From: Phymorhynchus buccinoides
Lineage: Eukaryota > Mollusca > Gastropoda > Neogastropoda > Raphitomidae
Length of the DNA stretch: 64,000 nucleotides
Direction of reading: 5' to 3'
Assembly: GCA_017654935.2 (NCBI GenBank)
Contig: CM065701.1
Span: forward strand, 1,928,609-1,992,608
The notes below the pieces were generated by a model, which saw nothing but the letters and a program-made list of their open reading frames with translations, was not told the DNA's origin and did no database searches. Made by a program: the position numbers and the translations under genes. Below are positions 12,995 through 51,761 of the stretch, piece by piece; the stretch's first letter is position 1; each line of letters starts with the position of its first letter.

Positions 12995-13162
12995 TCATGG
13001 CTTCAGGCCCAGCTCTCTCTGCTCCGCCTCGTCGGTTTCCTCGTCGTACAGATGGTCCTCGTCCTCGTCCTGTTCGTTGTCAGAGGGCAGGGGGGTGGAG
13101 GAGCGCGACTGGGAGGGGGAGGGGGGTGCAGAGCCCGGCTTGGTGTACCTGAAGCTCTTTTC
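12995..13162 (-). CDS. GYS: GYS exon 15, regulatory tail and stop (residues 637-691)
   Basis: 168 nt including TGA (12995-12997); acceptor CCCACAG|GAAAAG. It encodes [55 protein letters not shown]. Ser647, Ser651, Ser655 and Thr659 are spaced four apart, ahead of Ser663 in an SDNE context (CK2-like). This reproduces GSK3 sites 3a, 3b, 3c and 4 plus the priming site 5 of mammalian GYS. The acidic end is also typical. Thr replaces Ser at the site 4 position. Confidence 0.95.
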   Translation of the reverse strand, partial: EKSFRYTKPGSAPPSPSQSRSSTPLPSDNEQDEDEDHLYDEETDEAEQRELGLKP

Positions 13163-16100: not shown

Positions 16101-17336
16101 CATACAGAACTAATTGTAGAAGACAACAAAAGACAGCGACACTATAGCATACTCACAGTATACATACAGAACTAATTGTAGAAGACAACAAAAGACAGCG
16201 ACACTATAGCATACTGACATTATACATACTGAACTAATTGTAGAAGACAACAAAAGACAGCGACACTATAGCATACTCACAGTATACATACTGAACTAAT
16301 TGTAGAAGACAACAAAAGACAGCGACACTATAGCATACTCACAGTATACATACAGAACTAATTGTAGAAGACAACAAAAGACAGCGACACTATAGCATAC
16401 TCACATTATACATACAGAACTATATCTAAAGCAAATTGGAAATTATACCTTTTTTAATCATAAAATAGAAAAAGAGAACCGTTAAACTCATTCAGGCAAA
16501 TTGATTTGAAGATGTATATTTTCCGACTGTTCTAAAGCAAAAATCAGCATCCCACAGTTGTGACATCAAAAATCATCAGAGTTACTTATAGAACGCACCA
16601 TCCCAAAATGTACGCCACATTGTTTCCAACTGTACTACTAGTGACATCATGAGGCAGGGAGTCTGCAAAACAGTACCACTGTATGCTCCATGAAATACTA
16701 CAGTAGAACCTCCCTATAAAGACCTGTACTACTAGTGACATCATGAGGCCGGGAGTCTGCAAAACAGTACCACTGTATGCTCCATTAAATACTACAGTAG
16801 AACCTCCCTATAAAGACCTGTACTACTAGTGACATCATGAGGCAGGGAGTCTGAGTCTGCAAAACAGTACCACTGTATGCTCCATGAAATACTACAGTAG
16901 AACCTCCCTATAAAGACCTTCCCTATCTCACTCCCTCTAAGATGTGACCAAAAACTGTGTTCACTGATTTTCCCCATTCACGTCTGGCCTACTGAGAGTC
17001 CACCTCCCTATTAAGACCACTCCCTTTTACTAAAGACCCACCACATCCATGAGTGAAAATCATGGTCTTCACGCGTTTCCATCTCTCGCTGGTAAGATAT
17101 CTTATTTTGGCCAGGTGTGACTCCTATACAAATTCCCCCACATTCAAAACGAGACAGACTTTGAAGAGCAGCCTCGTTTGCCTATGAGGGAATTTGTATG
17201 TGGGTCACACCTGGCCAGCAAAAAAACCCAAGGGACTTAATCGTGCTGGGTGTCTTTAAGACATATTTTGACTGATTTTTCAAGGTCTTGGTAGGTAGGT
17301 TCCACTGTGGTATAGATGCAAAGATTGAGAGAGAGA

Positions 17337-17405
<69 letters not shown>

Positions 17406-20400
17406 GGGGGAGAGAGACAGAGAGAGAGGAGAGAGAGACAGAGAGAGAGTGGGAGAGAGAGAGAGAGAGAGACAGAGAGAGAGGAGAGAGGAGAGAGAGA
17501 GAGGGAGAGAGAGAGATAAAGCTAATGTTCATTATTGATAGTTCCACATACCACTCCCAGGTTTCTCCAGTCGAGCAGTTCGCTGAGGCGCTCCGTCCTG
17601 TTTCTCTGAATGATGCGCTGACGGCGAGAGAGACACGTGAAGTCGAACATGTACTGAAACACACATCAACACAATCACTGACTATCATCGACATTCTGTC
17701 TGTATTAGTGTATATGAATATGCACATTTCTAATCATATATGATATGATGTGAAGACACATGAAGTCGAACATGTACTGAAACACGCATCAACACAATCA
17801 CTGACTATCATCGACATTCTGTCTGTATTAGTGTATATGAATATGCACATTTCTAATCATATATGATATGATGTGAAGACACGTGAAGTCGAACATGTAC
17901 TGAAACACGCATCAACACAATCACTGACTATCATCGACATTCTGTCTGTATATGAATATGCACATTTCTAATCATATATCATATGATGTGAAGACACGTG
18001 AAGTCGAACATGTACTGAAACACGCATCAACACAATCACTGACTATCATCGACATTCTGTCTGTATTAGTGTATATGAATATGCACATTTCTAATCATAT
18101 ATGATATGATGTAGGTATTCCAAAGCCCTGCCTTGCAGCTGTGACAAACTGCCCAGAATGCCGATTTTTGCTTGTTTTCAACTTTCATTTTTTCCTTCCT
18201 GAATGAAAATTATGAATAAAAACTCATACCAAATTGTACTTCTGTCTTTTGTGGTTCTATTGGTGTGCTTTTTATTCTTGTGTATGATGTGTTATTATTT
18301 TAAAACATTTGTTGAAAATACCAACCGTATTGGAGTTTTTGGCCGCCGACAAGCCTTCTAACTAAGGCCGTCGGCACCCCCCGGCACTTCATGGCTTTGG
18401 ATGAGCCTGCCCATTTACTCAATATTAACTAAAGTGGTTCTATCTAAAAGGAAATTGAATGCTCTTTAAAACCATGCACTTTTTGAAAGGGTGGGGTAAT
18501 GTTAAGCTGGTTAAAATTTAGTTCAAACTTTTCAAAGTAAAATTTCTTATCGAAAATGACAACATTTTTGCGTAAAAGTTACACCGATCGAAAGCTTGGA
18601 GTTTTCTCTTCCCGTGACGACATGTTCTATTTGTATCCGACCAATGGGCACGCTCATCCACGAACCCAAACTCCGCGGAGTGCGTGACGTCATTCATTCA
18701 TTTACAACTGGCCGGCAAAAATGGCGCACGCACGACAACGCTAACAGAGGCTCAGTTTCATCGCGAAAATATTGCCCATCTTGAAATTATCTACGATATT
18801 GATTCCATGCTAGGTGAGTATTGCTGTTTAAGATTGTTTTCGTGCATTTTTTATGCATATATGATGTTGTAAAGTTTTATATTTCCGTAAAACATGACAT
18901 CATTCTGGAGCTAGAAATCAAATCTTTGACACGGCGAGCAGTCGAGTACTATCGAAGCCGAGCTAATTTTTTCTCATCATGTAAACCGATCATAACCATT
19001 ATAGATGTTTTGGAAAAAGCCTATTATTAACGCTTAAAGATGTAATTAGGAATAAAATTGGAAGATTTTAAAGAAATCGATCAAAATGTGAGATCACGTG
19101 ATGTTGAAAAAATGGTCTGTCCGACTAGTTAGACTGAGTGACTTCCCTTGGCAATATTCTCTTCTGTTTTTCGATCAGCCTAGGCCTAGGATCAGAATTA
19201 TATTTCCTCGTTTTTTGCCCAATACTTATTCAAATCAGTAATTGTTTTGGTTAAAATTATTGCGCTTCTAGACTTCTGCATGTATTTTGCAAAAGATTCA
19301 ACTGTTTGTTTCTGAATTGAAAACCTTTAGTCAGTAAAGTGAAGCATCTTCAAGTTCAACCCAGATTCTGAGATAGAGACTAAGAGAGGAATATCATCAT
19401 GCTAGGCCTAACTAAACGTTGTCTTGGCCTAGACCTACGGCTACCAACAAAATCGAAACTAGTTAATGCTAAGCAAAACTACAAAAAACAGTCAATTGTT
19501 CTCAATATTGTGTTTCATTAACAATTAACAGATACTGGAGAATGCACACACACTAACAATACATTGAATGATTGATAAAGGTCTGCTGTTTCTCATTCAC
19601 AAACATGAGATTTTGATTTCTGCACGCTTTATTTTACACACACACACTACAAGGAACTTAACTCAAGCACCTAGCAACCCAATAATAAACATACAATTAA
19701 AGACCCAACTGGGTTATATGCACACACACAACACACAATGCATGTGGATGTACCTGAATTAAGACAATTTGATGCAGTTTCAAGTTTCAGGCAACTGACT
19801 TCCTAAAACTCTCTCTCTCTCTCACTCTCTCTCTCTCTCTGCAGGCATGGGAATTGTCCGCAAATTTTTTTTTTTTAAGGCAAACTTTTAGTTACTAAAT
19901 ACTTCAATTTTTAGAATATTATATTTTAATGCTGTAAAAATGAGGGGGGGGGGGGGGGGGGGGCTTTTCAGATTTTTTTGTCTCTGACAATTCCCATGCC
20001 TCTCTCTCTCTCGCGCACACACACACACACACACACACTAAGGGGAGAGAGAGACTAAATATGCGCTTAAAATTTTAAAAACGAAGTTCAACAAAGACAT
20101 AATATAATTATAATAATTTTATTAATAGCTCACACACATGCAAATATGCATGCACATACGCACATAACCTTTCTCTCGTTCTGTGTGTGCGACTAAATTA
20201 ATACAATGTTCTATTGCATTGCCTGACCTAGGGCCCAACATACGTGGTCGTCAACGACTGACAGGAAGTCAACTACCACCTGATGTGATTCATAATCACC
20301 GTACTGGGAGTGAGCCAATTAGGAGTTTTCAAATAAATTTTGGAGATTCGTTTCAGATTATTTAAATATTAGCTTCATTTTACTTTGTCTTTGAAAAAAA

Positions 20401-22366
20401 AGATGGGAAAATTATATTTCAGGTGGGGAAAAAAATTGGACTGTGGATTGAAGTTTTTTTTTTCCCTCAAGTTTAAATTCATGTAAGGATTTCACAACAG
20501 AATCTTAACACAAAGCACTTGTGTCTTGCTTAGTTGCTAAAGATGAAAGTATATGGAAGTATTCATTTCGGAAAATAAAAGTTAAATCAAAGAACTGACG
20601 CATATATTCTGTTTTATTATGCTGCAGGTGGTGAAATGGTTCCAAGATCTGATTCCTGGTTTCCACCTGAACGTGCCAGGAACCTCTCAGGACTGAGGGA
20701 AACTCACCTGTCAAAGCATTGCTTGTCAAAGAATTTGACATTGTCACTTTGAATAATGCATTACGGCATAACTCAATCAAGTCTATGTGCATCATGCAAA
20801 AATATTTGTTTTTTGTTCCTTGTTGTATTGTTGTCCGCCAGATAGTGAATGATCACTTGACGTCACGCGCTGCACGCCTTTTGGGCAATTGTTTGAGCGT
20901 GCCCATTGGACACGCATCAACATGTACTGAAACACGCATCAACACAATCACTGACTATCATCGACATTCTGCATCAACACAATCACTGACTATCATCGAC
21001 ATTCTGTCTGTATATGAATATGCACATTTCTAATCATGTGTGATATGATGTGAAGACACGTGAAGTCGAACATGTACTGAAACACGCGTTAAAACAATCA
21101 CCGACTATCATCGACATTCTGTCTGTATATGAATATGCACATTTCTAATCATGTGTGATATGATGTGAAGACACGTGAAGTCGACCATGCACTGAAACAC
21201 GGGTCAACACAATCACCGACTGTAATCAATATTCGTCTGTATATTCCCTATCCTCCCCAACACACAGAGAGTACTGGAGCCAGCTCTTTGATGGAGTCAC
21301 CTGATCCTTTGAAGTACCTGTCCAGCACCCCCCCCTCACCCACCCATCGCCACCCCACCCCACACACATACACACAAACATCCATACCCTTTCACCCCAA
21401 CACATTTGTTACTTTGTTGCCTGCTTATATTTCCTTCATAATGCTTGAAAGAGACCAAAAGTGGAATTTTATGTTTTCTACTGAACTGGTTTTTAAAAAT
21501 AATATTTCATAAATATTGCCCTGTTATATCTTTTATGCTATTGTATATATGAATTAGGATGTATATGTGCGTGTGTGCATGAGAGAGAGAGAGAGAGGGG
21601 TGTGTGTACATATTGTGCGAGTCCGGGCATATTTGCAAGCATATAGTTTGTTTACGCTTTGTTGTTGTTGGGTGGTTATTGTTTATTTATTGTATGCTCA
21701 TTTCTCCTAATTTATTTATTTTTTTGTGTTATAGATGGCTTGATGTAAAAAAGCAAACATTATTGCTTATTCAATGTACCATCTGAAAATAAAAACTTTG
21801 ACTTGACACACACACACACCCAGAGTACCTGAGCGAGTTCCTTGATGGAGTCCTCGGAGCTCTTGCGGTGGCGATCCACGATGTAAATGCCGTAGGACTT
21901 GGGGTCCTGGATGTGGTCGTGCATGAAGCAGCCGAACCCCGACAAGTTGGTGGTGATGCTGGGGATACCCATCACCGTGCACTCCGCTGAAACCATCATC
22001 ATCACCATCATCATCATCCACAGCTCACATTCTCAGCATCAGAAAGTTAGACCCAGATTTCACTGCCTAGGCCCTAAGCTTTCCCATTTTCCAGCAGCAG
22101 TGAGCCTGCCAAAAATAGACCTCTCCCTTTTTTTTTCTCCTGCTGCCTTCAAGGCCTTTTAGTTACCTCTCCCTTACTGGCTAACACTCTCTCTCTCTCT
22201 CTCTCTCTGGTAGCATAGGTAGCGAGTTTAAAATTAGAACAGCAGTGGTGCTGGCTCAGATGAGAAGCAGGCAGGAAAAAGGAAGGGTAAGTGGCTAGAG
22301 TGGGCCAAACTTTATGAAGCCAGAATGCGGCAGAAAAACATGCTGTGTATCACCATCATCGTCATC

Positions 22367-22398
<32 letters not shown>

Positions 22399-25300
22399 CA
22401 TGAAGCAGCTGAACCCCGACAGGTTGGTGGTGATGCTGGGATTGCCCATCACCGTGCACACCGCTGAAACCATCATCATCATTGTCATCGTCATCATGAA
22501 GCAGCCGAACCCCGACAGGTTGGTGGTGCTGCTGGGATTGCCATCACCGTGCACACCGCTGAAACCATCATCATCATTGTCATCGTCATCATGAAGCAGC
22601 CGAACCCCGACAGGTTGGTGGTGATGCTGGGAATGCCCATCACCGTGCACACCGCTGAAACCATCATCATCATCATCATGAAGCAGCTGAACCCCGACAG
22701 GTTGGTGGTGCTGCTGGGATTGCCCATCACCGTGCACACCGCTGAAACCATCATCATCATTGTCATCGTCATCATGAAGCAGCCGAACCCCGACAGGTTG
22801 GTGGTGATGCTGGGAATGCCCATCACCGTGCACACCGCTGAAACCATCATCATCATTGTCATCGTCATCATGAAGCAGCCGAACCCCGACAGGTTGGTGG
22901 TGCTGCTGGGATTGCCCATCACCGTGCACACCGCTGAAACCATCATCATCATTGTCATCGTCATCATGAAGCAGCCGAACCCCGACAGGTTGGTGGTGAT
23001 GCTGGGGATACCCATCACCGTGCACACCACTGAAACCATCATTATCGTCATCATCATCATTGTCATCGTTATCATCACCATCACCATCATCATCGTTATC
23101 ATCATCATCATCATCATTGTCATCGTTATCATCATCATCGTCATGAAGCAGCCGAACCCTGACAGGTTGACACACACACACACCTGGCGTGTACCCCCAG
23201 GGCTCATAGTAGGAAGGGAAAACGCCCAGGTGACATCCCCGCACAAAGTCCTCATAGTCCAGGCCAAACAGAGGGTTGGTGGAGTTGAGGAACTCTGGAT
23301 GGAAGACCACCTGAAGCAGACATCAGTACGTCTGTTAATACATCATATCATGTTCATTACATCAGTACGTCTGTTAATACATCATATCATGTTCATTTCA
23401 TCAGTACGTCTGTTAATACATCATATCATGTTCATTACATCAGTACGTCTGTTAATACATCATATCATGTTCATTACATCAGTACGTCTGTTAATACATC
23501 ATATCATGTTCATTACATCAGTACGTCTGTTAATACATCATATCATGTTCATTACATCAGTACGTCTGTTAATACATCATATCATGTTCATTACATCAGT
23601 ACGTCTGTTAATACATCATATCATGTTCATTACATCAGTACGTCTGTTAATACATCATATCATGTTCATTACATCAGTACGTCTGTTAATACATCATATC
23701 ATGTTCATTACATCAGTACGTCTGTTAATACATCATATCATCATGTTCAGTACGTCTGTTAATACATCATATTCATCATGTCCAGTACGTTTGTTAACAC
23801 ATCATATCATCATGTTCATTACATCAATATGTCTGTTAATACATCACATCATCATGTTCAGTACGTCTGTTAATACATCACATCATCATGTTCAGTACGT
23901 CTGTTAATACATCATATCATCAATCATGTTCATTACATCAATACATCTGTTAATACATCATGTTCATTACATCAGTACGTCTGTCAATACATCACATCAT
24001 CATGTTCATTACATCAGTATGTCTGTCAATACATCATATTCATTACATCAGTACGTCTGTCAATACATCATATTCATTACATCAGTACATCTGTTAATAC
24101 ATCATATCATCATGTTCATTACATCAGTAAGTCTGTTAATACATATCATCATGTTCATTACATCAGTAAGTCTGTTAATACATATCATCATGTTCATTAC
24201 ATCAGTAAGTCTGTTAATACATATCATCATGTTCATTACATCAGTAAGTCTGTTAATACATATCATCATGTTCATTACATCAGTAAGTCTGTTAATACAT
24301 ATCATCATGTGTGTCACGAGTTTGTGACATTGTTCTTCTGAACAGACAGAGAAAGGCACAGTCTACCACTCGATCACAAAGGACCCCGAGATCTTTCTCC
24401 TTCTTTGAACCTAATCGAGACAACCTACTTGTGAAATCCGTGCAACCCGTGTTAGCTCTGACCTCTCGCGAGACTCCACATTCAACTGGCGACTTCATGA
24501 GTTTCGACCGGTCAAACGTCACTCCATATTTTTCCTTCAGTTAAGCAACATCGCTTCATCGCTTCATCCTTTCTCCTTTTCATCGTTCTGTCCACCTACG
24601 GCCGCCCAGTGCTGAGGTGTGGTGAGGGCCACGTCCCTGAAGGATCCTGTTATCAACTCTTTATCCTGCACGAGTCCTAGACGTGGGGATAGCGAAGCTG
24701 TAGAGCTTCGGCTGACATCGTTTCTCCTCTTCATCCTCATCGCCATCTTCACCCCTTTTTATTTGGTTCCTCATTGTCCTCCCTTCCCCGTCATCGTCCC
24801 TGGCGTTCACTGGAGTCCTGGAAGAAAGCTGTGGCCGGTCCGGAACCCCTTCCACCTGCTCGCGCTTACCCCGAGCCCTTGGCGAGACCAGAGCTGCGAC
24901 TGTCTTGTGGGGAGGATTCTTCTTCTTCATTCCGCCACTTGGAAGTTTGGTCAGTAGCTGCATAAAATTAGTATTAATCCCGTTAAAACTCGTACAACAA
25001 CGCGCGCGTAACAATGTAGAATAGCTAGTTATAGGTTTGCTAACATGTATATTTGTGTGCGTTTTCTTTGGTTCATTTTTCTTATTATTTTCTTGATTTT
25101 TGCATAAGGGGCTAAGGAACTGACTGGCTGGGTCATGACTTGTCAGTTGGATAGGTTTTTGCCGGTCGTAGAATTTGGTACTTGAACTCGGCACATATTT
25201 TTGAATCAATGTTTTGGCTCGCCATTGTGTGTTTAGGCCGTGCAAATCGTTTTTCGGTGCAAAGCGTATTTGAGTTCACAGAGATTCAGAATCCTAAATG

Positions 25301-28300
25301 CGTGCACGCGCGCGCATTATTCCTTGTTGCGGTATATGTTTAGCCTCGCGGCCTATGTTTAGCCTCGCGGCCTATGTTTAGCCTTGCGGTATATGTTTAG
25401 CCTCGCGACCTATGTTTAGCCTCGCGGTCATCGTCCTAGCTTAATTAGGTATTAAGAGACTCTGCGGAGAGCTGGATAACAGAGGGTTATTCCAGTCGCG
25501 CTTCTAGCTATGCTGATAGGGGCTTTGTAAAGCGTTCATCCCCGTTTCTGTTTTTATTTTTGAGAGAAAGTGTAATTAATGTTTTCAAGGCTTTTTGACC
25601 TTTTGAAGTACATTGTGAATGCTATTTTGGGGAAATACATTCTTTGCCTGTAGTTCGTCCGCCTTCTGGAAGAAATGAGAATGGAAAGGACATATTTTTG
25701 GTGGTGAAATTTTATGTGATATTTTCAGAAGAATTTAAGTGTCCATTCTTGTACCTGAAAAGCTGTGAAATTTTCAGAAGAATGTAATTGTTAATTTTTG
25801 TATTTGAAAGGCTAGAATTTTCTAAATGTATGAAAGCCTTGTTGTTCCAGAAAAAGTGAAACCTTTTAGTTAATCCTTTTTGATGAAATATTACCCCTAG
25901 ACTGAGTCGTGTGAAAAGGATTGTAAAGAAAGTGTTTTTCAGCGTTTTGGGGTTCTTGGAGAGAACCAAGTTTAAAGAGGGTGGGTTTTTACATCCCTGA
26001 AGAGGACTGTTGGGGAATTAGTTTTTGGGTAAACACAAAACTGTTGTTACTCTAGGTGTTCAAAACTAGGTTTTTGTTTTGGTTTTTCATACAGTCCTGA
26101 TCCTGAGCCTGAACCTGACCTGACCTGTTGCTGCCTGGTTGACCGCCCGGTCAACCGCTCTTTTCTCCGTTTCCGGCTGTGGGAGGCCGCCCGCCTTTCT
26201 GTCTGGCCCCGTGTTAGGCCCGATCTGTGGGCCTGTCTGTGCGTTCGGGCCAGGCTTCGACGTTCCTGTTGAGGAGTCTGGGGGCGACCTCTGCCGTCTC
26301 TCTTCTTTTGTTTCTGCTGCTGTAGCCTGCCCCAGGAGGGGGAGCAGTTTTTCTACTGACTTTTGTTTTCCCCTTTGTCTTCTTCTTCGGACGCTCTGCT
26401 GTTTTTGTTGGACTTCTTTTCTTCGTCTGCCCTTTCGTCGTTTTTCCCTTCGATTTTGTGTTTCTGCTTACAAACTCTCTTTTAGTTATTCAGTTAAGTT
26501 GCCGGCTTTAGTTTATTCTTTGGACAAACTTTTGAATGCCATGTATATTGTGTAGATAATTTGTTAAACATTGAGTGTATTGAATTGTGTAAGTGTGTGT
26601 GTGTGCTTGCTTATAATAAATAGTCTTGTTTTGAATTGTACTTCTGGTGTGCGCGTGTGCCTTCTCCTGCGAGTTTGTCTGTCTGGGCGTGCGAGACTCT
26701 CCTCGGGATTCGCGATTTCCCTCTCCCGATCTCTGATCAGGATCGAGCGGGGGATTTCGTGACAATGTTCATTACATCAGTAAGTCTGTTAATACATATC
26801 ATCATGTTCATTACATCAGTGAACCAAACCCTTAGACCGTTTACATCCCCACTAACCTTGATTCTGTCGTGTCTGTTGTTGAAGAGCTGGCATCGTGGCA
26901 GGGTATTGGTAAAGCCCCACTAACCTTGATTCTGTCGTGTCTGTTGTTGAAGAGCTGGCATCGTGGCAGGGCATTGGTAAAGCCCCACTAACCTTGACTC
27001 TGTCGTGTCAGTTGTTGAAGAGCTGGCATCGTGGCAGAGTATTGGTAAAGCCCCACTAACCTTGACTCTGTCGTGTCTGTTGTTGAAGAGCTGGCATCGT
27101 GGCAGGGCATTGGTAAAGCCCCACTAACCTTGACTCTGTCGTGTCTGTTGTTGAAGAGCTGGCATCGTGGCAGGGCATTGGTAAAGCCCCACTAACCTTG
27201 ACTCTGTCGTGTCTGTTGTTGAAGAGCTAGCATCGTGGCAGGGCATTGGTAAAGCCCCACTAACCTTGACTCTGTCGTGTCTGTTGTTGAAGAGCTGGCA
27301 TCGTGGCAGGGCATTGGTAAAGCCCCACTAACCTTGACTCTGTCGTGTCTGTTGTTGAAGAGCTAGCATCGTGGCAGGGCATTGGTAAAGCCCCACTAAC
27401 CTTGACTCTGTCGTGTCTGTTGTTGAAGAGCTGGCATCGTGGCAGGGCATTGGTAAAGCCCCACTAACCTTGACTCTGTCGTGTCTGTTGTTGAAGAGCT
27501 AGCATCGTGGCAGGGCATTGGTAAAGCCCCACTAACCTTGACTCTGTCGTGTCTGTTGTTGAAGAGCTGGCATCGTGGCAGGGCATTGGTAAAGCCCCAC
27601 TAACCTTGACTCTGTCGTGTCTGTTGTTGAAGAGCTAGCATCGTGGCAGGGCATTGGTAAAGCCCCACTAACCTTGACTCTGTCGTGTCAGTTGTTGAAG
27701 AGCTGGCATCGTGGCAGGGCATTGGTAAAGCCCCACTAACCTTGACTCTGTCGTGTCAGTTGTTGAAGAGCTGGCATCGTGGCAGGGCATTGGTAAAGCC
27801 CCACTAACCTTGACTCTGTCGTGTCTGTTGTTGAAGAGCTGGCATCGTGGCAGGGCATTGGTAAAGCCCCACTAACCTTGACTCTGTCGTGTCTGTTGTT
27901 GAAGAGCTGGCATCGTGGCAGGGTATTGGTAAAGCCCCACTAACCTTGACTCTGTCGTGTCTGTTGTTGAAGAGCTAGCATCGTGGCAGGGCATTGGTAA
28001 AGCCCCACTAACCTTGACTCTGTCGTGTCTGTTGTTGAAGAGCTGGAAATCGTGGCAGGGTATTGGTAAAGCCCCACTAACCTTGACTCTGTCGTGTCTG
28101 TTGTTGAAGAGCTGGCATCGTGGCAGGGCATTGGTAAAGCCCCACTAACCTTGACTCTGTCGTGTCTGTTGTTGAAGAGCTAGCATCGTGGCAGGGTATT
28201 GGTAAAGCCCCACTAACCTTGACTCTGTCGTGTCTGTTGTTGAAGAGCTGGCATCGCCGCAGGGCGTTCAGCACCTGGTCGTTCTGATCCTCCGCCACGT

Positions 28301-34300: not shown

Positions 34301-37300
34301 TCTAATATTATTTGTTATGTTATAAGATGCCGGGGTCTCAATCTGAGAAAAAAGTCTCGCCTTAGGCCGTGTACACATAAGCGGAGATTCCGTGCGAAAA
34401 CCCGTGCGCAATCCATAAATAAGTGAAACAAAGAAGGGAAAAGATTTGCGCATGTGTCCGAATTTCCCCTATATACATAAACTTTTATCCTTTTTCTTCC
34501 ACTTATTTAGGGTTTTCCGTACGGAACTTGCGTGTTTAATGTGAACCCGGCCTTATAGTCCAACAAATATGGTATGTGTTCTGGCAGTGAGTGGATACCT
34601 CAAGCCTCCGTTCGTGCAGGTGGACAATCCTGCCCTTCCACAACTCTCTCCTCGTGAGAATACTGGGGGAGGGGGGGTCTGTTGTATAAATAGTTTCCCA
34701 ATCTTCTGGAAGTTCTGTGCTTGTTACTTCATGCATGCACGCACACGCACACACACACACAGAGAAACTAACCAGGTTTTCGTTTCAGTAGGTACTCGGC
34801 CTCAGTGCCAGTGATTTCAGACACAGTGGTGAACACGTGAGCGCAATGCACGGCGGCTCGCTCCATACAGTACCGGTGATAGATCTGCCTGTCTCCTGCC
34901 TCCTTGTCCAAATTGAACTGCAAATCATAATCATATATACAATATTTATAAATTTGTGTGAACACGTGAGCGCAATGCACGGCGGCTCGCTCCATACAGT
35001 ACCGATGATAGATGCCTCCTTGTCCAAATTGAACTGCAAATCATAATCCCATATAATTATACAATACGTATGTACTATAATGTAGTGATAAATTTGTGTG
35101 AACACGTGAGCGCAATGCACGGCGGCTCGCTCCATACAGTACTGGTGATAGATCTACCTGGCCCCCACCTTCTTGTCCAAACTGAATTGTAAAAGCCGCC
35201 TCACATTATCCAACCATTTAGTTGGAAGAAAATTCAGCTGTGAACTCTATTCAACTACTTGCGGCCGTATGCCGAATTTACTCTATCAGCAAGCCTTGGC
35301 TGTATTCCCACAACCGCCTGAGTAAGTTGGAAGTAAATGGCACAGTCGCCAGTTCCTTCTGACCTGGTTGGAAGAGTTCCATCCGATCAAATTTTGCATT
35401 TGTGATTTCTACTCACTGTCAAATGAAAAGAAAACAAATTTTCTTCCAACTAAAAGGTTAGATAGTGTGAGGTGGCCTTAAAGACAATGGGTAAATGGAA
35501 AGTTGAAGCCCCCGTTCACATTCCTAACAATCTTGGCTGTGCTAATCAATTGTGGACATCAGGGTGACGTGCAAAGCAGGAATGTACTTTTGATATCGCC
35601 CACTACATTTTTCTAGTTTTCACTACGAAACAACATTTTGCATAGGGCTGAAAGTCTGATTTGGCATCGAGTGGCACCCTAGCCTCTTTTAGTTGTTTGT
35701 TTAGCTTTGGTGTTTATTTTTGTTCATGTAAGTTTGATCCCAATGGACAGAGGAGTATCTAAACATGAAAATAAAAGGCCACATACAAAGAAAATGTTTA
35801 GATATGTTCTTAAAATAACGAAAAATCGGAACGAAACTGGTGTATTCTGACGTCATAGAGCGCTACACGTTTTGGGGTGGCTTTAGTCAACTTTGTTTTT
35901 CAGCATTAAAAAGCCTTGTCTGTGAATGTTAGCGTATACACTGTTTATGAAATAGATCCCCCCTTCAGCTGTTATGATTTTGCATGGTGTACGTGCTGCG
36001 AAAAAAAATAAAAATCTGGTCCTTTCTATTTTGTGGTCGAGTGTGATACTGTTTCGTGATGGCTACATACTGACAATAAACAGTCGCTGCCAGCTGTCAG
36101 TTGTCTTTTAACGGACCACTCCTAGGTGTTGAAACATTCAATTGTGGCAAGGGAGCTCAACAAAACACACTGCCGGGGAAGAAGGGGCAAAGTTTATCAA
36201 GCAATTAAACATTGCACCCCCCTATCGGGACATCGTGATTCCGGGAAAAGTTTGGCGGGAATGAGGGTTTTGGGTTTTTTCAACCCAGCCGCGTTCCCCC
36301 CCCTGGCTAGAATTAGAGGGCTGTGGTGGTATCCCATCTTTTCATTTATGCACAGAAAGCTATGGATTACACGGGTCACAGTGAAGAAAATGATGAAGGT
36401 TGGTGGCGACCGTTTTTAGCTTTCTGTAACGTACTACGTCCATTTACTCTTGATCTAGCGCACACATAGACCTGTTCATTGACGTTTTATCTTTCCTTCA
36501 CTTACGGATCATTTGCAACAGATTTGAATGAACAATGTCAGTTCTATTCAATGAAAAATTACTTTAAATACGAGCACGTTCTCTTCACCAATTACATTTG
36601 GTGTTGTGTAACGTAATTGCCATTTTTCATTTTTATCCTGAAAAGGCAACCATTTGTATTGGTTTTATAACCGGTTGACGTTACAGCAGACATAAAGAAT
36701 GTCCTCTATTTAATGAAAGGAGTTATCACACAATTTGGGTTACATATCATGAGCAGGCTACATTCACAATGACGGTTTCATCATGCTCATGAAGGCTAAC
36801 GCACACAGAGTGTTGTGATTGAACAATGCGTTAGATTGAAACACTTAAATACTTATTGTCTCTAAAAAAAACTATTGGTATTATTAATTTGACCTTTGTT
36901 GAATATAGGCTATTGTGAACAAAGGAATGTTAGTGTGATGGGTACGTTATACATCACTACACAGGTGTAGTTTTTGGTGTGGGTAGCGTTCTCATAGACC
37001 CGTCTTCTTTCATAGCAGGCATTTCTACACAAATGCGCGCTCTCAGTTTTTGTTGCGTTGTTTCAGTTACTGACATTGAATACAAACATGAAATTTAGAT
37101 TTGAACAAGGAAAATACACACAGACAGTAAAAACAGAAAGTGTAGGTTACGTGTCACGTCGGTGGTGAAAACGGAGAGAATGAAACGCGCACACACAACG
37201 TCCGTTTTTTATTCAGCGACTGGACTTATTTCTTCACGAGTCCGAGTCCGCTGTAAGCTATCATTGCCCCAAGCACACGTGTTGCCCTGCTCCAAAGTTC

Positions 37301-37637: not shown

Positions 37638-37672
<35 letters not shown>

Positions 37673-38717: not shown

Positions 38718-38781
<64 letters not shown>

Positions 38782-38896: not shown

Positions 38897-38938
<42 letters not shown>

Positions 38939-41900
38939 GTAAACCACTGTAACAAGCTAACAAACAACTGTGCCGAACGAAAATCATACCTTGAGGTTTT
39001 CTTGATGACGCTGGTTGGAAGCGTGTAGAAGAAAAACCTTCTTTCCACTGCTTCCGTACTTGATAGCTTTGGAACAAACCAAGCAGAAGGCTTCGCCTGG
39101 TCGGTCGATTTTTCTCAACCATCGTTCGTGAGCAACTCCATTCACGTCTTCAATTTTTAATCAAGTGAATGACCACTTATTCTTAATGCCTTCCTCCTCC
39201 TTTTCAATCTGCCCTGAATCGGGCTGAAAAAGAAAACGCATTTTCCTCACGAATTTGGCAAGAGCAGTTAGCGTCGTGGAGACTTTAGGTAGGAAAAATG
39301 GCGCCCGGAAAGCGTGACGTCCGCAAATTCTAAATCAGCTAAAACGCGCTTTTAGATTTTGAGAACGTTGCTTGTCAATTTTTCAAAATCCGGAATTTTC
39401 CGGATTCAGAATTTTTTAAAAACGGAAATCCGGCAAATCCGGAACCCAGTAGCACCCATGTAATACCCAATATTAACTTAAAAACATAACCTTGATTGTT
39501 GAAGTGTAACCTGCTCGGCAAGAGCCATGAAACGGCATTGTTATGAAATGTCTAAACTTCGGCACATCATATCGTAACTGACAACATTTACAGAACTACA
39601 TCGCAGCAATACTGTTGTTCCACAAATTAACATATTTTAAAGTCCGATTCATCGGACAGTACTAGATGTTCTAATTGCGTTTTCACTCGTTAGCAAGTTA
39701 GTGCTGTACCTTTTATATTGTTTGTTCCAGAAAATGTGTAATATATAACACATAATGCAGAATTGTGTTACATACTGGAGATTGTTACAATGTAGAAATG
39801 GTTTTTATTTACTGTATGGTTCTAAAATAGTTACGATTTTCATACATTTTGGTGTAACTGTAACATACTCTGAAGTCTGAAGTCCAATGATCAGTGATGG
39901 TATCTTTCTAAATTTGTTTGTGCAAGAACCTCAGTACAGACACAAATTAAATCAAAGCAGTTTAAATCATTGCTGCTTAGGGTTTTTTTAATGTATGGGT
40001 GAAAACACTGCGTTACATGGTGATGTGTAACACTCATTTAAATTTTATTTTTATGTACTGCTGACCGCGCCAATCAGATATTGAACTTCTTGTGCATGCT
40101 CTTAAATCTGCCCCTGGTAATGTACATCTGGTGATAAAAACAGAACAGTTGGAAGTTATTTATTTTAGGCCTTGTGTGTAACACGATTTAGACACCAAAT
40201 CAGATTCTTGACCTTAGATTATGTAAAGAATAGGGTTAGTATGTTGTAAGTCATTTTTATGATATGAAAAAGCAATACCTTGTGACTGAGACTGACAGCC
40301 AGAGGTTGGAAGCATGGTGGGATAGGTAAACTAGACCTTTGCCCACATTTCTCCCCGGACAGAAAAGATAGCATCCTTTACGGACTATAAGGTGACACTT
40401 TCTTTTTCCCCACTTGGACCAATGCGCTTCATAATATGACTAATAACGTCACAAGAAACTATCAAAACAAAATCAGGATTTTGTGTAAAATTTAGTGGGT
40501 GCGACTCATAATATAATGCGCCTTATAGTCCGTAAAATGTGGCATTAAAAAATATGAAAAGTTGTAAACATTTCCGTGCGTACACTGTCTAGGTTGTTGT
40601 AGAAGTCGGCACTGCCGGCACACAGGTATCGGCCCAGCAGTGTGGCGTGGGTGGTGAACATGAGGCACACGTTCAGCTGACGAAGCCGCTCCAGGATCAA
40701 CCCTGCACCCGCCAGCCACTCATGGAAATGGTTGATCACCACCGGGTCACCGGGCAGGTTCTTGATGAACTGAGTGCAACACAGAGAAACAAACAGAGAA
40801 ACAAACAGAGAATACAGAGAAACAAACAGAGAATACAGAGAGAAACAAACAGAGAATACAGAGAAACAGAGAATACAGAGAAAAACAAAAAGAGAATACA
40901 GAGAAACAAACAGAGAATACAAAACAAAAAAAACAGAATACAGAGAAACAAACAGAGAATACAGAGAAAAACAAACAGAGAATACAGAGAAAAACAAACA
41001 GAGAATACAGAGAGAAACAAACAGAGAATACAGAGAAACAAACTGAGAATACAGAGAGAAACAAACAGAGAATACAGAGAAACAAACAGAGAATACAGAG
41101 AAACAAACAGAGAATACAGAGAAACAAACAGAGAATACAGAGAGAAACAAACAGAGAATACAGAGAGAAACAAACAGAGAATACAGAGAGAAACAAACAG
41201 AGAATACAGAGAGAAACAAACAGAGAATACAGAGAAACAAACAGAGAATACAGAGAGAAACAAACAGAGAATACAGAGAAACAAACAGAGAATACAGAGA
41301 GAAACAAACAGAGAATACAGAGAAACAAACAGAGAATACAGAGAAACAAACTCAGAATACAGAGAAACAAACAGAGAATACAGAGAAACAAACAGAGAAT
41401 ACAGAGAAACAAACAGAGAATACAGAGAAAAACAGAGAATACAGACAAAATAAGTCAGCCACTCATGGAAATGGTTGATCATCACCGGGCAAGTTCTTGA
41501 TGAACCGAGGCAAAGAGAGACATCTTCATGAACCGAGGCAAAGAGAGACTTCTTGATGAACCAAGGCAAAGACAGATTTCTTGATGAACCGAGGCAAATA
41601 TATTTTTCTTGATGAACCGAGGCAAAGAGATTTTTCTTGATGAACCGAGGCAAAGAGAGACTTCTTGACCGAGGCAAAGAGAGACTTCTTGATGAACCGA
41701 GGCAAAGAGAGACTTCTTAATGAACCGAGGCAAAGAGAGACTTCTTGATGAACCGAGGCAAAGAGAGACTTCTTAATGAACCGAGGCAAAGAGATACTTC
41801 TTGATGAACCGAGGCAAAGAGAGACTTCTTGATGAACCGAGGCAAAGAGAGACTTCTTGATGAACCGAGGCAAAGAGATACTTCTTGATGAACCGAGGCA

Positions 41901-44900
41901 AAGAGAGACTTCTTGATGAACCGAGGCAGAGAGACTTTTTAATGAACCGAGGCAAAGAGAGACTTTTTGATGAACCGAGGCAAAGAGAGACTTCTTGATG
42001 AACCGAGGCAAAGAGAGACTTCTTGATAGAACCGAGGCAAAAAGAGACTTCTTGATTAAATGAAATGCAAAGAGATTTTTGGATGAAATGAAATGGAAAG
42101 AGATTTCTGGGTGAAATGAAATGCAAAGAGATTTCTGGGTGAAATGAAATGCAAAGAGATTTCTGGGTGAAATGAAATGCAAAGAGATTTCTGGGTGAAA
42201 TGAAATGCAAAGAGATTTCTGGGTGAAATGAAATGCAAAGAGATTTCTGGATGAAATGAAATGCAAAGAGATTTCTGGATGAAATGAAATGCAAAGAGAT
42301 TTCTGCAAAGAGATTTCTGGATGAAATGAAATGCAAAGAGATTTCTGGGTGAAATGAAATGCAAAGAGATTTCTGGATGAAATGAAATGCAAAGAGATTT
42401 CTGGATTAAATGAAATGCAAAGAGATTTCTTGATGAACTGAGAGCAACACAGAAAAACAAACAGAGAATACAGACTAAATAAGCCAGCCACTCATGAAAA
42501 TGGTTGAAGAAGAAGAAGAAGAAGAAGAAGAAGAAGAAGAAGAAGAAGAAGAACAACAACAACAACAAGAAGAAGAAGAAGAAGATAAGAAGAAGAAGAA
42601 GAAGAGAAGAAGAACAACAACAACAACAAGGAAGAGGAAGAAGATAAAAAAAGAAGGAAGAGGAAGAAGATAAAAGAAGAAGAAGAAAACTGCTCAACCG
42701 ATTACAATTCATATAAAAAAATAAAGGAAGCGACAAATAAGAACAATATTTTACTTGTGACGATGTCAAGCGAATGCAGTCAAGTTAAACACAAACCAGT
42801 CGGTGTCGTTGGACTTTTCTGTACAAATAAATTCCCTCACCCTCCGGTAGTGAATCTCACACTGACCTCTGCCATGAACCATGTGACGAGGGCACCAAAG
42901 ATGACGGCATCGTTGGACTCTCGATCGTGCCACGGAATGCCGATGCCGGCCAGCTCCCAAAGCTCATGTTTGAACTCGTCCAGCTTCCAGGCCGCTGACC
43001 CAATGTCAAACAGGATCACCTTGGGATAGCCGTCGATAAGCCACCGACCAAAAAACACCTGTAGACAGAGAGATATCATGTGCCTATTGTCAGACAGGAT
43101 CACCTTGGGATAGCCACCGAGCAAAGAACTCCTGTAGACAGAGAGATATCATGTGGCTATTGTCAGACAGGATCACCTTGGGATAGCCACCGAGCAAAGA
43201 ACTCCTGTAGACAGAGAGATATCACGTGGCTATTGTCAAACAGGATCACCTTGGGATAGCCGTCGATCAGCCAATGATAAAAAAAAAACCTGAAAGTTTA
43301 ACAATACCCTTTCTGACTTGTATGCATAAACCAGCAGAGCCATTCAACAATACCCCTTACGATTTGCATCAGTATGTCTGCAAAATACACCACTACATTA
43401 AGGTTTGATTTATTAACACGCACTGCGCCATTGGCACACTATTTTTGAAAATGACCCATCAGATTTGGTGGCATGTGTGCCAAGTGTATCCTCCGCAGTC
43501 CCCTAGTCAGCCCCCACCTCCCTTCATCATACAATGCATTTGACAAAAGTGCACATTTGAACATTATAAGTGCAGGGACAAAAATCATACCGAAGCATGG
43601 CATTTTGTCAATGATAAGCTCAGGTTTTTCTTCCATAGTCTGCACCTTTCTTGTCACAGCAGGTCGATGGTCGATGGACACTTCAGCACCTATAACGTAT
43701 GTTCTTCTTCTTTGTTTCCGATTGGGGATGTTTATCCTGCCCCGCATCCAAAGTCTTCGCTTAGATTGCTATTGGCGCTCAGGATGCATGCTTTGTGAGT
43801 TCGTGACATCCATTCCACCGGCACAACACGGCCTACTCCTACCGAGTGGAATGGGCTTTAATGTGTGCGCAAGATCTTGTGCGTGCGTTCGCACACGGGA
43901 CCTCGGTCTCATCCGAAGGACCAGGAAATAGGAGTAAAGTATCTTTCCCAAGGACACAATACCGTGAACGGAGCTGGGTTCGAACCAACGAACTCATGTT
44001 GAGGAGTGAGAGAGAGAAAGGAAAGGTGGTATATACCTAAATGATATATCATGCTGTCATTGTAAAAAACCACTGAGTTTTGTCAAACCATTCTGTGATA
44101 TCCACATGGCATTGACCATGATCAGCAGGCAGACCTGTATGTTAATGTGTCCCCTCCATGGTTCTGACATGAATGACCTGAGCATGCTGGTTTGAAAAAT
44201 ATCCAATGAAAATCTGGTATACTGTTAAAACTATAAAGACTGAAATTTGAAGTAGACATTTTGAGATTAAAATAAAGTTTTGGGCTGTACAGTGGCGTTG
44301 CTCCCATGCCGCTCATTCCAAGGTATTGCAGTAGACTAAATAGTATGACTTCGCCAGGATCTCAACCTTCACTCTCTCGCTTTCACTTGCCTCCCCCTTC
44401 TCTTCGGCAATCACCCAGTCCTCCCACACTTCCCTTCACAATGGATGCCCCAGCCCCAAGACATCCATCCATGGGTACATCACAGCATGTATGACGATGC
44501 AAATCTCTGCTTGAACTTGTCTTCAGCTATAAACCCAGTCCTCACTTCAAGAGTTGTGGAAATTAGGTTCTCTTCGGGCAGAACACTGCCTGAACCTGCG
44601 CATCCAATTGCCTCAATTGAGGCATGCCCACATACACCTCTACCCACTTCAGGCATGGGATTAAGAAATTATGATTTGGACTGAAAAGAGGCAGGCAGAA
44701 TAAGGCTGAAGAAAGCCTAAAGCCACTAGAAACTGAAGCCCCCCCCCCCCCCCCCCCCCCCGTAATTTGAGCTTTAAAACCAGCATTAGATGTAGAATTG
44801 ATATTAACCATTTCGCCGCCGATGTCACATTTCTGCACCACAAGGATTTAACACCTTTGTCAGTAAAAGTCATGAAATTTGGATCTGGTATCCAATGACC

Positions 44901-47900
44901 GTATGTTGTTTATTTTGTGAGATTGTGAAAGATGTTATCTGATACACGTCACAGTGGGATTCATAGTATAGCAGACAAACTTTTCTTTACAAACTTTTCA
45001 GATAAGTTTGACAGAACATTTTGACTGAAAAAAGGCTGGTGGCAAAAGGGTTAAGTTTATCAGGAGCGAAGCGACTTGGTATCCCACAGCACAGTGAGCC
45101 AAAGAAGGACCGTGTCTGTCTGTGTGTCTGTCAGTCTGTCCATCCCACGTTAAAGTCAAGAAAGCCTTAACCGATTTTAATGATATTTGGATGTTAGGTC
45201 CGTTGCGTTACCGTGATGGTTTTAGACTATTTTGCAGAAATAAAACATAACAAAATAACCGTTAAATGGCAGTTATTTTCTGTTTTTAACACCTTTCCGC
45301 CAATTTCATCCAAACTATTTCACAGAATGTCGTAGAATTTTGAAGTAGATACTTTTTTTTCTTAACAAACATAACCCCCAAGTTTGGAAAGCATGACTTA
45401 ACATTTTGTCGGTTAAAAACGGTTATTTTTTAGTTTTGCAGTGATCGTAATGAAAATTGGTGGGTAGGTTCATGTTTTAATTCTGGAAATTATAGTACCC
45501 TCTTCATAAACGACACTTAACTTTTGACAGTTAAAAACCGTTATTTTTTAGTTTTGCAGTGATCGTAATGAAAATTAGTGGGTAGGTTCAGCTTTTCATT
45601 CTGGAAATTATAGTGACCTTTTCATAAACGACATTTAACTTTTGACAGTTGAAAACCGTTATTTTCTATTTTTGCAGTGATCTTGATGAAAATTGGTGGG
45701 TAGGTTCAGTTTTACTTTCTAAACATGATAATGAACTTTTTGAATAACGACATTTTAGTTTTGACAGTTAAAACCCGGTTTTTTAAACTTTCACGGTTCT
45801 GTCTATCTGTCTGTCTGTCCTCTCTCTCTCTCTCTCTTTCTGTGGTGGTGACCAGCTTCTTTTTATAGAAGTAAATGCACACACTTTATGGGGTGACCAT
45901 AGAAAAAGAAGCAGAAGAGAACAAAAGGAAAGAAAAGAGAATAAGGAAAAGAAAAGAGAACGATTAAACAGAAAAGTCTCTCTCTCTCTCTCTCTAGAAG
46001 CTCTCTCTCTCTCTCATCCACATAAACAAATGACGTATAATTATGACGCTGCAAGGCAACAATACTGACGTAAAGTGCCATACTAGTTCATTACGTCATG
46101 ACGTCATTTTGTTTCGTCAAGGTCAAAAACTGTAGGCTTTAAATTCTAGATTTACAGAACAAAGAAAACAAATTTTTATAGCTCGACGCAAAAAAAATCA
46201 TCTTTAGGAAGAAAATCAAAGACAACGTTGAGAAAGGAAGCGTACAGACAGGGAATGGGGGGATGGCAACGAATGAAGGCACAGGAAAGGAATATGGAAG
46301 GGAGAAGCAAGGAAGGACCATGAAAAGAGAGAGAAAGAGAGGGGAAAAAATGTGGAAGAAAAGAAACGTGCTAGAGAAGACAACGAAAAGAGAGAGAAAG
46401 AGAGGAAAAGGAATGTGGAACGAAAGAAACGTGAAAGAAAAGACGACGAAAAGAGAGAGAAAGAGAGGAAAAGAAATGTGGAAAGAATGAAACGTGCTAG
46501 AGAAAACAACGAAAAGAGACAGAAAGAGAGGAAAAGAAATGTGGAACGAAAGAAACGTGAAAGAAAAGATGAGGAAAAGAGAGAAAAAGAGCGAAATATT
46601 TGTACAGCATGCAACGGAAAAGCCAGGCGAGAGATGTTTTCCCCCCTGAACAGCCTCACACCTAGCCCTGCGCCACACTGCCTTTCTGATCTCACTCAAG
46701 TCGAGAAATCAGCCATATCAATCATTTGCCCATCAATAGCCATTTAGAAGAAAGGAGCCAGCACTGCATCCAAAGGCCACACCATTGCTTTCTTTCAGGA
46801 TGTTGAACATTTTGCAAATTTTTTGCCTAGGGTTCCTTGTCGTTGAGTTGAGTCTCTCTCTCTCTCTTTCTCTCTCCCTCCATCCCTCTCTCTATGTTTT
46901 TCTCTATCACCCCCCCTATCTCTCTCTGTTTATCTTCCTCCCTCCTCTCTCTCTCTCTCTCTCACTCTCTACAGCTTCACTCCTGGGTGTGCAGTGCCAA
47001 AACAGAATCTCAACATGTGCCAAAGGCACTGCACGAGGAGAAATAATGCTTTACGCCCTCTTTGGCCTTTCGGCCATGTGGGGCTAAGGCACTGCACGAG
47101 GAGAAATAATGCTTTACGCCCTCTTTGGCCTTTCGGCCATGTGGGCCAAAGGCACTGCACCTCTACTTAATTTTTATTTATTCATAGTCATGTATACAAA
47201 GTATTTCTATACTCAATCTCTTTTTGATATCAAACATGACCTTTGGGGCCATACAAAAAAAGCCTGAAAGTCTGAAAAATCTCATGCCAGACCTTGATGC
47301 CGGCCTGCCGCATGGTGGCAATGGTGTCTCGGTATACGTAGTGGTGTGGCTCCAGTATCTCCACCTCGGTGCGCACACAGGCCTCGTTGTAGGGCCCCAT
47401 CAGGCAGTACTGCTCCCCCCATTCCTCCACTGTCACCGGGGCCTTGGTCTTGATCACCGTGTAGATCCCGCCCACTGGAAGGGGGAAATGCATGAATGTA
47501 TACATGTACACATGTGAGAGTGTATAATGTAAATCCCTCCCACTGGAAGGGGGAAATGCATGAATGTATGTACACATGTGAGAGTGTATAATGTAAATCC
47601 CTCCCACTGGAAGGGGGAAATGCATTAATGTATGTACACATGTGAGAGTGTATAATGTAGATCCCTCCCACTGGAAGGGGGAAATGCATGAATGTATGTA
47701 CACATGTGAGAGTGTATAATGTAGATCCCTCCCACTGGAAGGGGGAAATGCATGAATGTATGTACACATGTGAGAGTGTATAATGTAGATCCCTCCCACT
47801 GGAAGGGGGAAATGCATGAATGTATGTACACATGTGGGGGTGTATAATGTAGATCCCGCCCACTGGAAGGGGGAAATGCATGAATGTATGTACACATGTG

Positions 47901-50900
47901 AGAGTGTATAATGTAGATCCCTCCCACTGGAAGGGGGAAATGCATGAATGTATGTACACATGTGAGAGTGTATAATGTAGATCCCGCCCACTGGAAGGGG
48001 GAAATGCATGAATGTATGTACACATGTGAGAGTGTATAATGTAGATCCCGCCCACTGGAAGGGGGAAATGCATGAATGTATGTACACATGTGAGAGTGTA
48101 TAATGTAGATCCCTCCCACTGGAAGGGGGAAATGCATGAATGTATGTACACATGTGAGAGTGTAGAATGTAGATCCCTCCCACTGGAAGGGGGAAATGCA
48201 TGAATGTATGTACACATGTGAGAGTGTATAATGTAGATCCCTCCCACTGGAAGGGGGAAATGCATGAATGTATGTACACATGTGAGAGTGTATAATGTAG
48301 ATCCCTCCCACTGGAAGGGGGAAATGCATGAATGTATGTACACATGTGAGAGTGTATAATGTAAATCCCTCCCACTGGAAGGGTTTTCAATGCTTAACAA
48401 TTAAAAAATTCAGTCAACAAGGAAATGCATGAAATGCATGAATTGCATTTTGACTGTGGTGAACAGTGCACCACTTGGAAGGCTTGTGGTTCCAAATAGA
48501 TGCAAATAGCAAAAATCATGTACACATGTGAGAGTGTATAATGTAAATCCCTCCCACTGGAAGGGGGAAATGCATGAATGTATGTACACATGTGAGAGTG
48601 TATAATGTAAATCCCTCCCACTGGAAGGGGGAAATGCATGAATGTATGTACACATGTGAGAGTGTATAATGTAAATCCCTCCCACTGGAAGGGGGAAATG
48701 CATGAATGTATGTACACATGTGAGAGTGTATAATGTAGATCCCGCCCACTGGAAGGGGGAAATGCATGAATGTATGTACACATGTGAGAGTGTATAATGT
48801 AAATCCCTCCCACTGGAAGGGGGAAATGCATGAATGTATGTACACATGTGGGGGTGTATAATGTAGATCCCTCCCACTGGAAGGGGGAAATGCATGAATG
48901 CATCATGTACACATGTGAGAGTGTATAATGTAGATCCCGCCCACTGGAAGGGGGAAATGCATGAATGTATGTACACATGTGAGAGTGTATAATGTAGATC
49001 CCTCCCACTGGAAGGGGGAAATGCATGAATGTATGTACACATGTGGGGGTGTATAATGTAGATCCCTCCCACTGGAAGGGGGAAATGCATGAATGCATCA
49101 TGTACACATGTGAGAGTGTATAATGTAGATCCCGCCCACTGGAAGGGGGAAATGCATGAATGTATGTACACATGTGAGAGTGTATAATGTAAATCCCTCC
49201 CACTGGAAGGGGGAAATGCATGAATGTATACATGTACACATGTGAGAGTGTATAATGTAAATCCCTCCCACTGGAAGGGGGAAATGCATGAATGTAGGTA
49301 CACATGTGAGAGTGTAGAATGTAGATCCCTCCCACTGGAAGGGGGAAATACATGTGAGAGTGTAGAATGTAAATCCCTCCCACTGGAAGGGGGAAATGCA
49401 TGAATGTAGGTACACATGTGAGAGTGTAGAATGTAGATCCCTCCCACTGGAAGGGGGAAATACATGTGAGAGTGTAGAATGTAAATCCCTCCCACTGGAA
49501 GGGGGAAATGCATGAATGTATGTACACATGTGAGAGTGTAGAATGTAGATCCCTCCCACTGGAAGGGGGAAATGCATGAATTTATGTACACATGTGGGGG
49601 TGTATAATGTAGATCCCTCCCAATGGAAGGGGGAAATGCATGAATGTATGTACACATGTGGGGGTGTATAATGTAGATCCCTCCCACTGGAAAGGGAAAA
49701 TGCATGAAGTGAATATATGTACACATGTGATAGTGCATAATGTAGATCCCTCCCACTGGAAGGGGGCAGACACACTGCATACAGTATGATCTAACAGTAC
49801 ACATGTGATAGTGCATAATGTAGATCCCTCCCACTGGAAGGGGGCAGACACACTGCATACAGTATGATCCAACAGTACACATGTGATAGTGCATAATGTA
49901 GATCCCTCCCATTGGAAGGAGGCAGACACACTGCATACAGTATGATCTAACAGTACACATGTGATAGTGCATAATGTAGATCCCTCCCATTGGAAGGGGG
50001 CAGACACACTGCATACAGTATGATCCAACAGTAACATTTGTGAAATTGTGAAATGAGGTCTACATTATATAAGTGAACGAAAACAGTATAATTATTTTAA
50101 GACAGAAGTATATTTTACATTAACCCTTTCGCCGCCAGCCAATTTTCAGCAACAAATTTCCATGAATCTTACCTGGGTAAAGAAAAATATCATCTGCAAT
50201 AGTGGGGATTCCTCTATGACATGTATAAAGTAAGCCCTATCCTTACCTCCCAAAATAAAGAAAATTGGGTCTTTGGATAACAGACCCTGGTTTGATGCCT
50301 TTTAGTGACATGGGTGTTAAACCATTGTGGTGCATAAATGCGACATTGGCGGTGAAAGGGTTAATCATGTACATGTGTGTACATCCATGTGCAAGTGTGT
50401 GCATGTTTGCACACACATGTGCAATATTTGAAATTTTGGGTCAAATATGGTCCATGAATTTTTAAAACAAAGCTCTGTTGGTTAGAGGTGGGGGGAAAAA
50501 CCGGTTTGAACCGAAAAACCGGTGCAAAACTTTTGCGGTTCGAAAAACCGTTTCAAGTTGCTGTAAACCGTTTTTTTTAACTGCAAACTGAAAGTAAATT
50601 TGTCTTAGAATAACGCATTCTTTTCGAAAAACAACACTAATTCTCAGCACAGAGTGGGTGTTTCGAAACCAAGAGTAGCTGTTTCTAGTTTGTGGTGGTC
50701 TCTCTCTTGCCTTTAGGTTTGTTTCTGGTTTATACAATTTATGTCAAACGTGTGTGTTCGCTTTGCATTGCATTTTTGTTTGAATGTGTTACTGTTATGA
50801 ATGCTAACGTGTGTGTGCGCTTTGATTTGATTTCTATCAAGATTCAGACTCAGAGCGGTATAAATACTGTATGTTGTTGTTGTTGATTGAGTTCAGTGTG

Positions 50901-50931
50901 TGTGTCATACTCATAAGTCATAAGTTTCTTT

Positions 50932-50983
<52 letters not shown>

Positions 50984-51761: not shown

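Follow-up and report, generated by a model that had tools for sequence, protein, structure and literature searches.

Here, we identify a glycogen synthase gene (GYS) and a pyruvate kinase gene (PK) of Phymorhynchus buccinoides in which intron–exon junctions are accompanied, within the adjoining introns, by near-copies of themselves, many of them in tandem arrays that begin at the exon. Because their anatomy is the same as that of the mirage minisatellites of amphioxus, we class these arrays, which are known here from genomic sequence alone, as mirages. We consider it likely that they arose by tandem duplication of stretches straddling exon edges, followed by turnover of the resulting arrays, while selection preserved the copy that belongs to the exon. 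Thus, the kind of structure is already known; what is new is its extent and density, in both of the genes whose sequence was read. In the literature covered, as far as its text was accessible, mirages have so far been a curiosity known from a few genes of lancelets. Here, they accompany 13 of the 46 junctions in two genes that are unrelated to each other, which suggests that decoy splice sites may be commonplace in this genome of 2.12 Gb. Two questions thereby become directly testable: by what means splicing finds the true site when tens of nearly identical sites lie nearby, and whether new introns do arise from tandem duplications that span exon edges.

The window (the whole stretch of 64,000 nucleotides that was analyzed) lies on scaffold C22 of an assembly of 2,119,302,774 bases in 3,962 pieces. 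The coding part of GYS occupies positions 12995..51761 of the window on the minus strand and consists of 15 exons with a 2076-nt coding sequence of 691 codons plus stop. The exons were located by tblastn with a query protein, and their junctions were then placed by hand on AG/GT dinucleotides and reading phase. This places exon 1 at 51761-51617, exon 2 at 47474-47293, exon 3 at 43058-42867, exon 4 at 40769-40584, exon 5 at 34917-34773, exon 6 at 34163-34046, exon 7 at 32888-32768, exon 8 at 31249-31083, exon 9 at 29636-29558, exon 10 at 28331-28218, exon 11 at 23310-23184, exon 12 at 21986-21829, exon 13 at 17653-17552, exon 14 at 13904-13833, and exon 15 at 13162-12995. The reading frame is open with no internal stops, and the product matches the structures of human muscle glycogen synthase (GYS1) in the PDB over residues 35-683 (E 1.2e-291), bearing out an earlier claim, made in a first-pass annotation of this DNA, that every true exon is intact. 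The donor of exon 2 is weak or unusual (GTCTGG, 47292-47285).

Junction copies were scored with a 24-mer spanning each exon edge (12 + 12 bases), of which at least 20 of 24 positions had to recur on the same strand within 6.5 kb. By this test, 8 of the 28 GYS edges have junction copies. They number 78 in total, 75 of which keep the AG or GT, and are distributed over acceptors 2 (36 copies), 3 (2), 4 (1), 5 (1), 12 (7), and 13 (4) and donors 7 (7) and 10 (20). A 30-mer test returned the identical eight edges, and a 40-mer test returned seven, with acceptor 4 dropping out. Ungapped extension gives the exonic slice carried by the copies a median of 11-65 bases, depending on the edge. Donor 6 fails at all three word lengths but is the site of an array detected by TRF (33863-34050) that overlaps exon 6 by 5 bases, making it a marginal ninth edge. 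Thus, of the nine edges at which the first-pass annotation had reported repeat units with an exon slice and, usually, the splice site, eight stand and donor 6 is marginal. Its further statement that in nine introns an array begins exactly at the exon boundary holds for six edges (acceptors 2, 3, and 13 and donors 6, 7, and 10), but not for acceptors 4, 5, and 12, where the copies are detached or do not form an array.

All of these features lie, like the gene, on the minus strand. The acceptor-2 array (47460..50037, delimited by TRF and edge copies) has a unit of 64 bp, or 78 bp at its far end, made up of the 3' end of intron 1 and the first 15 bases of exon 2, and 33 of its 36 copies carry the AG. 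At acceptor 3 (43039..43261), the unit is 73 bp, with two copies in addition to the real edge and a 20-base overlap with exon 3. The acceptor-13 array (17631..18112) has units of 115-123 bp with 23 exonic bases and three junction copies, and a second, detached block of the same family (20936..21244) contains one more, at 21076. Elsewhere in intron 13, a 62-bp unit is repeated 34 times with a 97% match and without any exon edge (14314-16422). At donor 6 (33861..34050), the 42-bp unit combines a GTGAG donor with ∼5 exonic bases; at donor 7 (31987..32787), units of 94 and 105 bp include 20 exonic bases and the GT is present in 7/7 copies; and at donor 10 (26847..28265), the 68-bp unit consists of ∼48 exonic and 20 intronic bases, with GT in 20/20 copies.

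Among the edges without a contiguous array of junction copies, acceptor 12 has an array (22375..23060) 389 bp upstream of the exon, with a 96-bp unit composed of 65 exonic bases and (GAT)n and with AG in all seven copies. Acceptor 4 is accompanied by a complex nest of arrays (40793..42502), recognized from TRF, tblastn, and edge copies together. A pyrimidine-rich 21/44-bp array adjoins exon 4, a 28-bp array has a unit that starts like exon 4, and partial exon-4 copies lie near 41455-41505 and at 42461-42502; the sole AG-bearing copy is at 42437, 1.67 kb upstream. Upstream of exon 5, two decayed partial copies of the 5' part of that exon are found at 34945..35213, with the edge of the AG-bearing copy at 35033. 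The stretch at 35091-35213 in intron 4, a decayed extra copy of the first part of exon 5, contains an in-frame stop.

The array units at the GYS edges measure 28, 42, 64, 68, 73, 94-105, 96, and 115-123 bp, and their sequences differ from edge to edge. On these grounds, we set aside a single spreading repeat, and the earlier proposal of an independent event at each edge is supported. At the seven GYS edges compared (acceptor 4 left out), the consensus of the copies differs from the exon edge by 0-4 bases over 31-81 columns, i.e., by 1-4 bases at six edges and by none at donor 7. The differing junction slices, unit lengths, and sequences, together with these slightly divergent consensuses, fit separate local duplications followed by turnover.

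PK, which lies on a different scaffold of the same genome, was chosen as a second gene before any of its sequence had been seen. In a table of protein matches, the end of one PK exon is repeated five times downstream. Within the 14 kb of PK sequence read, there are nine exons, numbered here by their order within that piece. In the 24-mer test, 5 of the 18 PK edges have junction copies, 24 in total and all with the splice dinucleotide: nine at donor 2, three each at acceptors 3 and 4, five at donor 6, and four at donor 8. The arrays are tandem and adjoin the boundary at acceptors 3 and 4 and donors 6 and 8, but not at donor 2. Accordingly, the phenomenon is not peculiar to one gene, as had been supposed when GYS alone was considered. 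PK is present as two inverted multi-exon copies ∼116 kb apart (C31:12554671-12568186 on the plus strand and 12684483-12703080 on the minus strand), and the match table for the second copy has repeated partial matches to that same exon end. Intronless PK matches are found at C13:44762307-44763875 and C3664:8417-9973, with 63% and 61% identity to human; the latter sits in an open frame of 3076 codons on a small piece, and we suspect that it is a contaminant or of other origin. For enolase, viewed by match table only, the table lists nine exon matches on scaffold C19; at E values of up to 1, it lists no copies of parts of exons. This null says little because the match table misses most known edges, revealing 2 of 8 in GYS and 1 of 5 in PK.

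Are exon edges hit more often than expected? Introns rich in arrays invite coincidence: of the non-simple 30-mers in GYS introns, 40.8% are repeated within 5 kb, as compared with 6.1% elsewhere in the window. An edge, however, can contribute to an array only as its terminal unit, and a fair yardstick therefore counts each distinct intron sequence once (weight 1/copy number). On this yardstick, 8.4% of distinct GYS intron sequence is repeated versus 28.6% of edges (binomial P 0.0016). In PK, the background is 28.9% raw and 9.05% distinct, giving P 0.019 for its 5/18 edges, and for both genes combined the 13/46 edges compare with a repeated share of 8.6% among distinct intron sequence (binomial P 9.4e-5). 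From units placed by simulation on collapsed introns, 1.3-1.8 of the 23 GYS array families were expected to carry an edge and 7 do (P 8e-5 to 7e-4), and among the 8 PK families 1.2-1.3 were expected and 5 do (P 0.002-0.003); these families had been merged by hand beforehand, and the unmerged form, with array pieces counted separately, gave 16 versus 2.8. By the 24-mer test, 16/23 GYS and 3/8 PK families are without an exon edge. A test of TRF contiguity, on GYS alone, was not significant (4-5 edges versus 3.0 expected, P 0.17-0.34); in this test only the best-scoring period is kept, which in many cases is a multiple of the unit, and neither donor 7 nor the detached arrays are detected. Because GYS was picked for its oddity, no single P value stands alone. 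Thus, the preference for exon edges put forward in the first-pass annotation is upheld by two of three GYS tests and by both PK tests but not by TRF contiguity, and it comes from two genes only. In both genes, edges are apparently hit three to five times above uniform seeding.

Tandem repetition is not confined to these genes. Over the 18 of 20 spaced 10-kb regions of C22 that contained readable sequence, it accounted for 21.5% of sequence windows (3.8% distinct), and the values of individual regions spanned 3% to 63% in the 13 listed that were more than half readable. In the flanking pieces, including a second copy of part of GYS, it reached 28.8% (8.9% distinct). The mirages here thus belong to a tandem duplication that is generally abundant, with what seems to be additional weight at exon edges.

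We infer a mutation mechanism, its neutrality, splicing at the true sites, and seeding by simple sequence as follows. A stretch of ∼30-160 bp straddling an exon edge would first be copied in tandem, through slippage during replication or through unequal exchange. The extra copy would become intron, and the exon would keep its complete sequence and its own splice site. Because one complete exon with its own site is left, such a duplication should be nearly neutral and tolerated like duplications that are entirely intronic. Later unequal exchange would grow and shrink the intronic array, and purifying selection would hold the exon's own copy; selection of this type, keeping the exon-proximal copy, is consistent with the intact exons. 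Splicing at true sites can rest on exon definition, in which the true acceptor and donor are paired across a short exon, and in GYS and PK this pairing would let the splicing machinery bypass the decoys. The seed of the first duplication may plausibly have been simple sequence beside the splice site, such as GT-, GA-, or GAT-rich tracts. Judged by eye, at least 4 of the 13 units contain simple sequence, namely those of PK donors 2, 6, and 8 and of GYS acceptor 12. In each of the four, a microsatellite makes up the intronic part, with GT, TGA, and GA at the three PK donors, respectively, and GAT at GYS acceptor 12.

Tolerance explains why edge arrays can exist but not their three- to fivefold excess at edges; since uniform neutral seeding under-predicts edges, something beyond tolerance may favor them. 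That tandem duplication truly has hot spots at exon edges, e.g., through R-loops, splice-adjacent simple sequence, or a step in base composition, we regard as nearly an even call, with the balance tipped slightly against it. The share of array families with an edge is some four to five times that under uniform seeding, also in the blindly chosen PK, and the combined edge count points in the same direction. However, only two genes are involved, one of them chosen for looking odd, the families were merged by hand, and TRF contiguity on GYS alone gave no significant excess; moreover, other insertions turn over introns and the edges stay, so that a diluted interior could inflate the ratio. A stronger proposition concerns the genome as a whole, i.e., that exon edges are true hot spots duplicated three to five times above introns, that they are seeded by splice-adjacent simple sequence, and that at least a quarter of all junctions carry decoys. 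We advance this tentatively, and rather doubt it; if true, the genome would keep supplying new introns and altered exon boundaries, and it would offer a natural experiment on splicing by exon definition. The retention of AG or GT in nearly all copies of both genes (75/78 and 24/24) might instead suggest that the arrays are selected for a role, e.g., in splicing regulation or splice-site buffering. Yet, the copies were defined by their resemblance to the junction, and retention of the dinucleotide is therefore expected. In the acceptor-2 array, the only one large and varied enough to judge, the A is lost in 0/36 copies and the G in 3/36, and the other columns have a mean of 1.28 mismatches; the dinucleotide is thus not clearly better kept than other columns and gives no sign of selection on decoys, an idea that we set aside. 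Copy number also differs between two assembled copies of this array, and altogether a selected role is very unlikely. Somewhat less remote, but still improbable, is the idea that some of the arrays represent steps on the way to intron gain or to a shifted exon boundary. The units do consist of an exon part with intact-looking splice sites, and such a model is stated for amphioxus globins in the accessible text of that report (PMC3087553), but no gained intron is among the evidence from GYS and PK.

Duplication and turnover at exon edges must also be weighed against an origin of the arrays in the assembly itself, from collapsed or stuttered long reads, and a second assembled copy of part of GYS bears on this in both directions. 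The stretch that runs from exon 3 past exon 1 (window 42895-64000) recurs on C22 from position 2009451 onwards, outside and upstream of the window, with 98.2% and 97.0% identity over 5.5 and 5.1 kb. This second copy starts at the fifth base after a run of 500 N, and the matching is colinear until the first copy reaches that run. We read the run as a scaffold gap and, from the run and the overlap together, conclude that the second copy is probably the other haplotype, with overlapping contigs left unmerged; a real tandem duplication is the less simple reading. The neighborhood thus seems to hold an unmerged overlap, and to this extent the assembly is imperfect here. However, the two assembled copies agree on the junctions at which arrays occur. 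Both have the same two acceptor-3 copies, and the acceptor-2 array has 36 units in the window and 47 in the second copy, counting the one at the exon itself, with the longer array interrupted by 1.7 kb without units. In addition, the copies within an array differ by substitutions, PK on another scaffold has the same anatomy, and in the comparable case of amphioxus PGBD5, resequencing spoke against assembly error, according to the accessible part of that report (PMC3902484). Because the two copies of exons 1-3 agree and a second gene shows arrays, we give almost no credence to the assembly artefact that had been listed among the possible explanations.

Several known systems resemble the arrays described here in part. 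Ordinary intronic minisatellites, which are common in this genome, also have tandem units of 20-160 bp; the GYS and PK edge arrays are distinguished by carrying the exon edge. Intronic minisatellites have been described in abalone TSSK1 and, together with exon duplications absent from transcripts, in earthworm metallothionein; the accessible parts of these two reports do not state that units span an exon edge. In the accessible text of a report on intron gain in gastropod hemocyanin, the words repeat and tandem are absent. Minisatellite expansion affecting gene structure has likewise been described for human genes in segmental duplications, which are modified by internal tandem repeats (PMC2812944, as partly accessible). 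Intron gain by tandem genomic duplication (the Rogers model, with potato RdRp as a case in the accessible part of PMC4974935) also involves a tandem duplication that carries splice signals within a gene; however, the new intron there forms within an exon, whereas the GYS and PK copies lie within existing introns and the GYS frame is unchanged.

The closest match is the mirages of amphioxus, described for Adh3 and the globins BflGb6 and BflGb9 (PMC3087553), and also for PGBD5 and troponin C (PMC3902484). In the accessible text of the globin report, these are boundary-spanning tandem copies at acceptors or donors, with units of 10-160 bp, many copies with splice signals, and length differences between haplotypes, and regular splicing is reported (PMC3087553). 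The same text calls their mechanism unclear and proposes mirages as a route to new introns, in which one unit is recruited as an exon and the remainder becomes intron (PMC3087553). Because amphioxus mirages have been described, the initial view that no described process seeds such arrays is not supported as worded. In searches of open-licence literature, two of which listed the best 15 of 209 and the best 15 of 268 matches, boundary-spanning tandem copies described as such were found among the matches listed only for amphioxus, and absence elsewhere is unproven. As in amphioxus, the units in GYS and PK span the intron–exon boundary of the host gene and the authentic GYS exons are intact, and the arrays are tandem and adjoin the boundary at GYS acceptors 2, 3, and 13 and donors 7 and 10 and at PK acceptors 3 and 4 and donors 6 and 8. 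The lancelet genome is about one-quarter the size of the 2.12-Gb genome studied here. In contrast to amphioxus mirages, those described here occupy eight to nine edges of one gene and five of a second, with up to 36 copies at a single edge.
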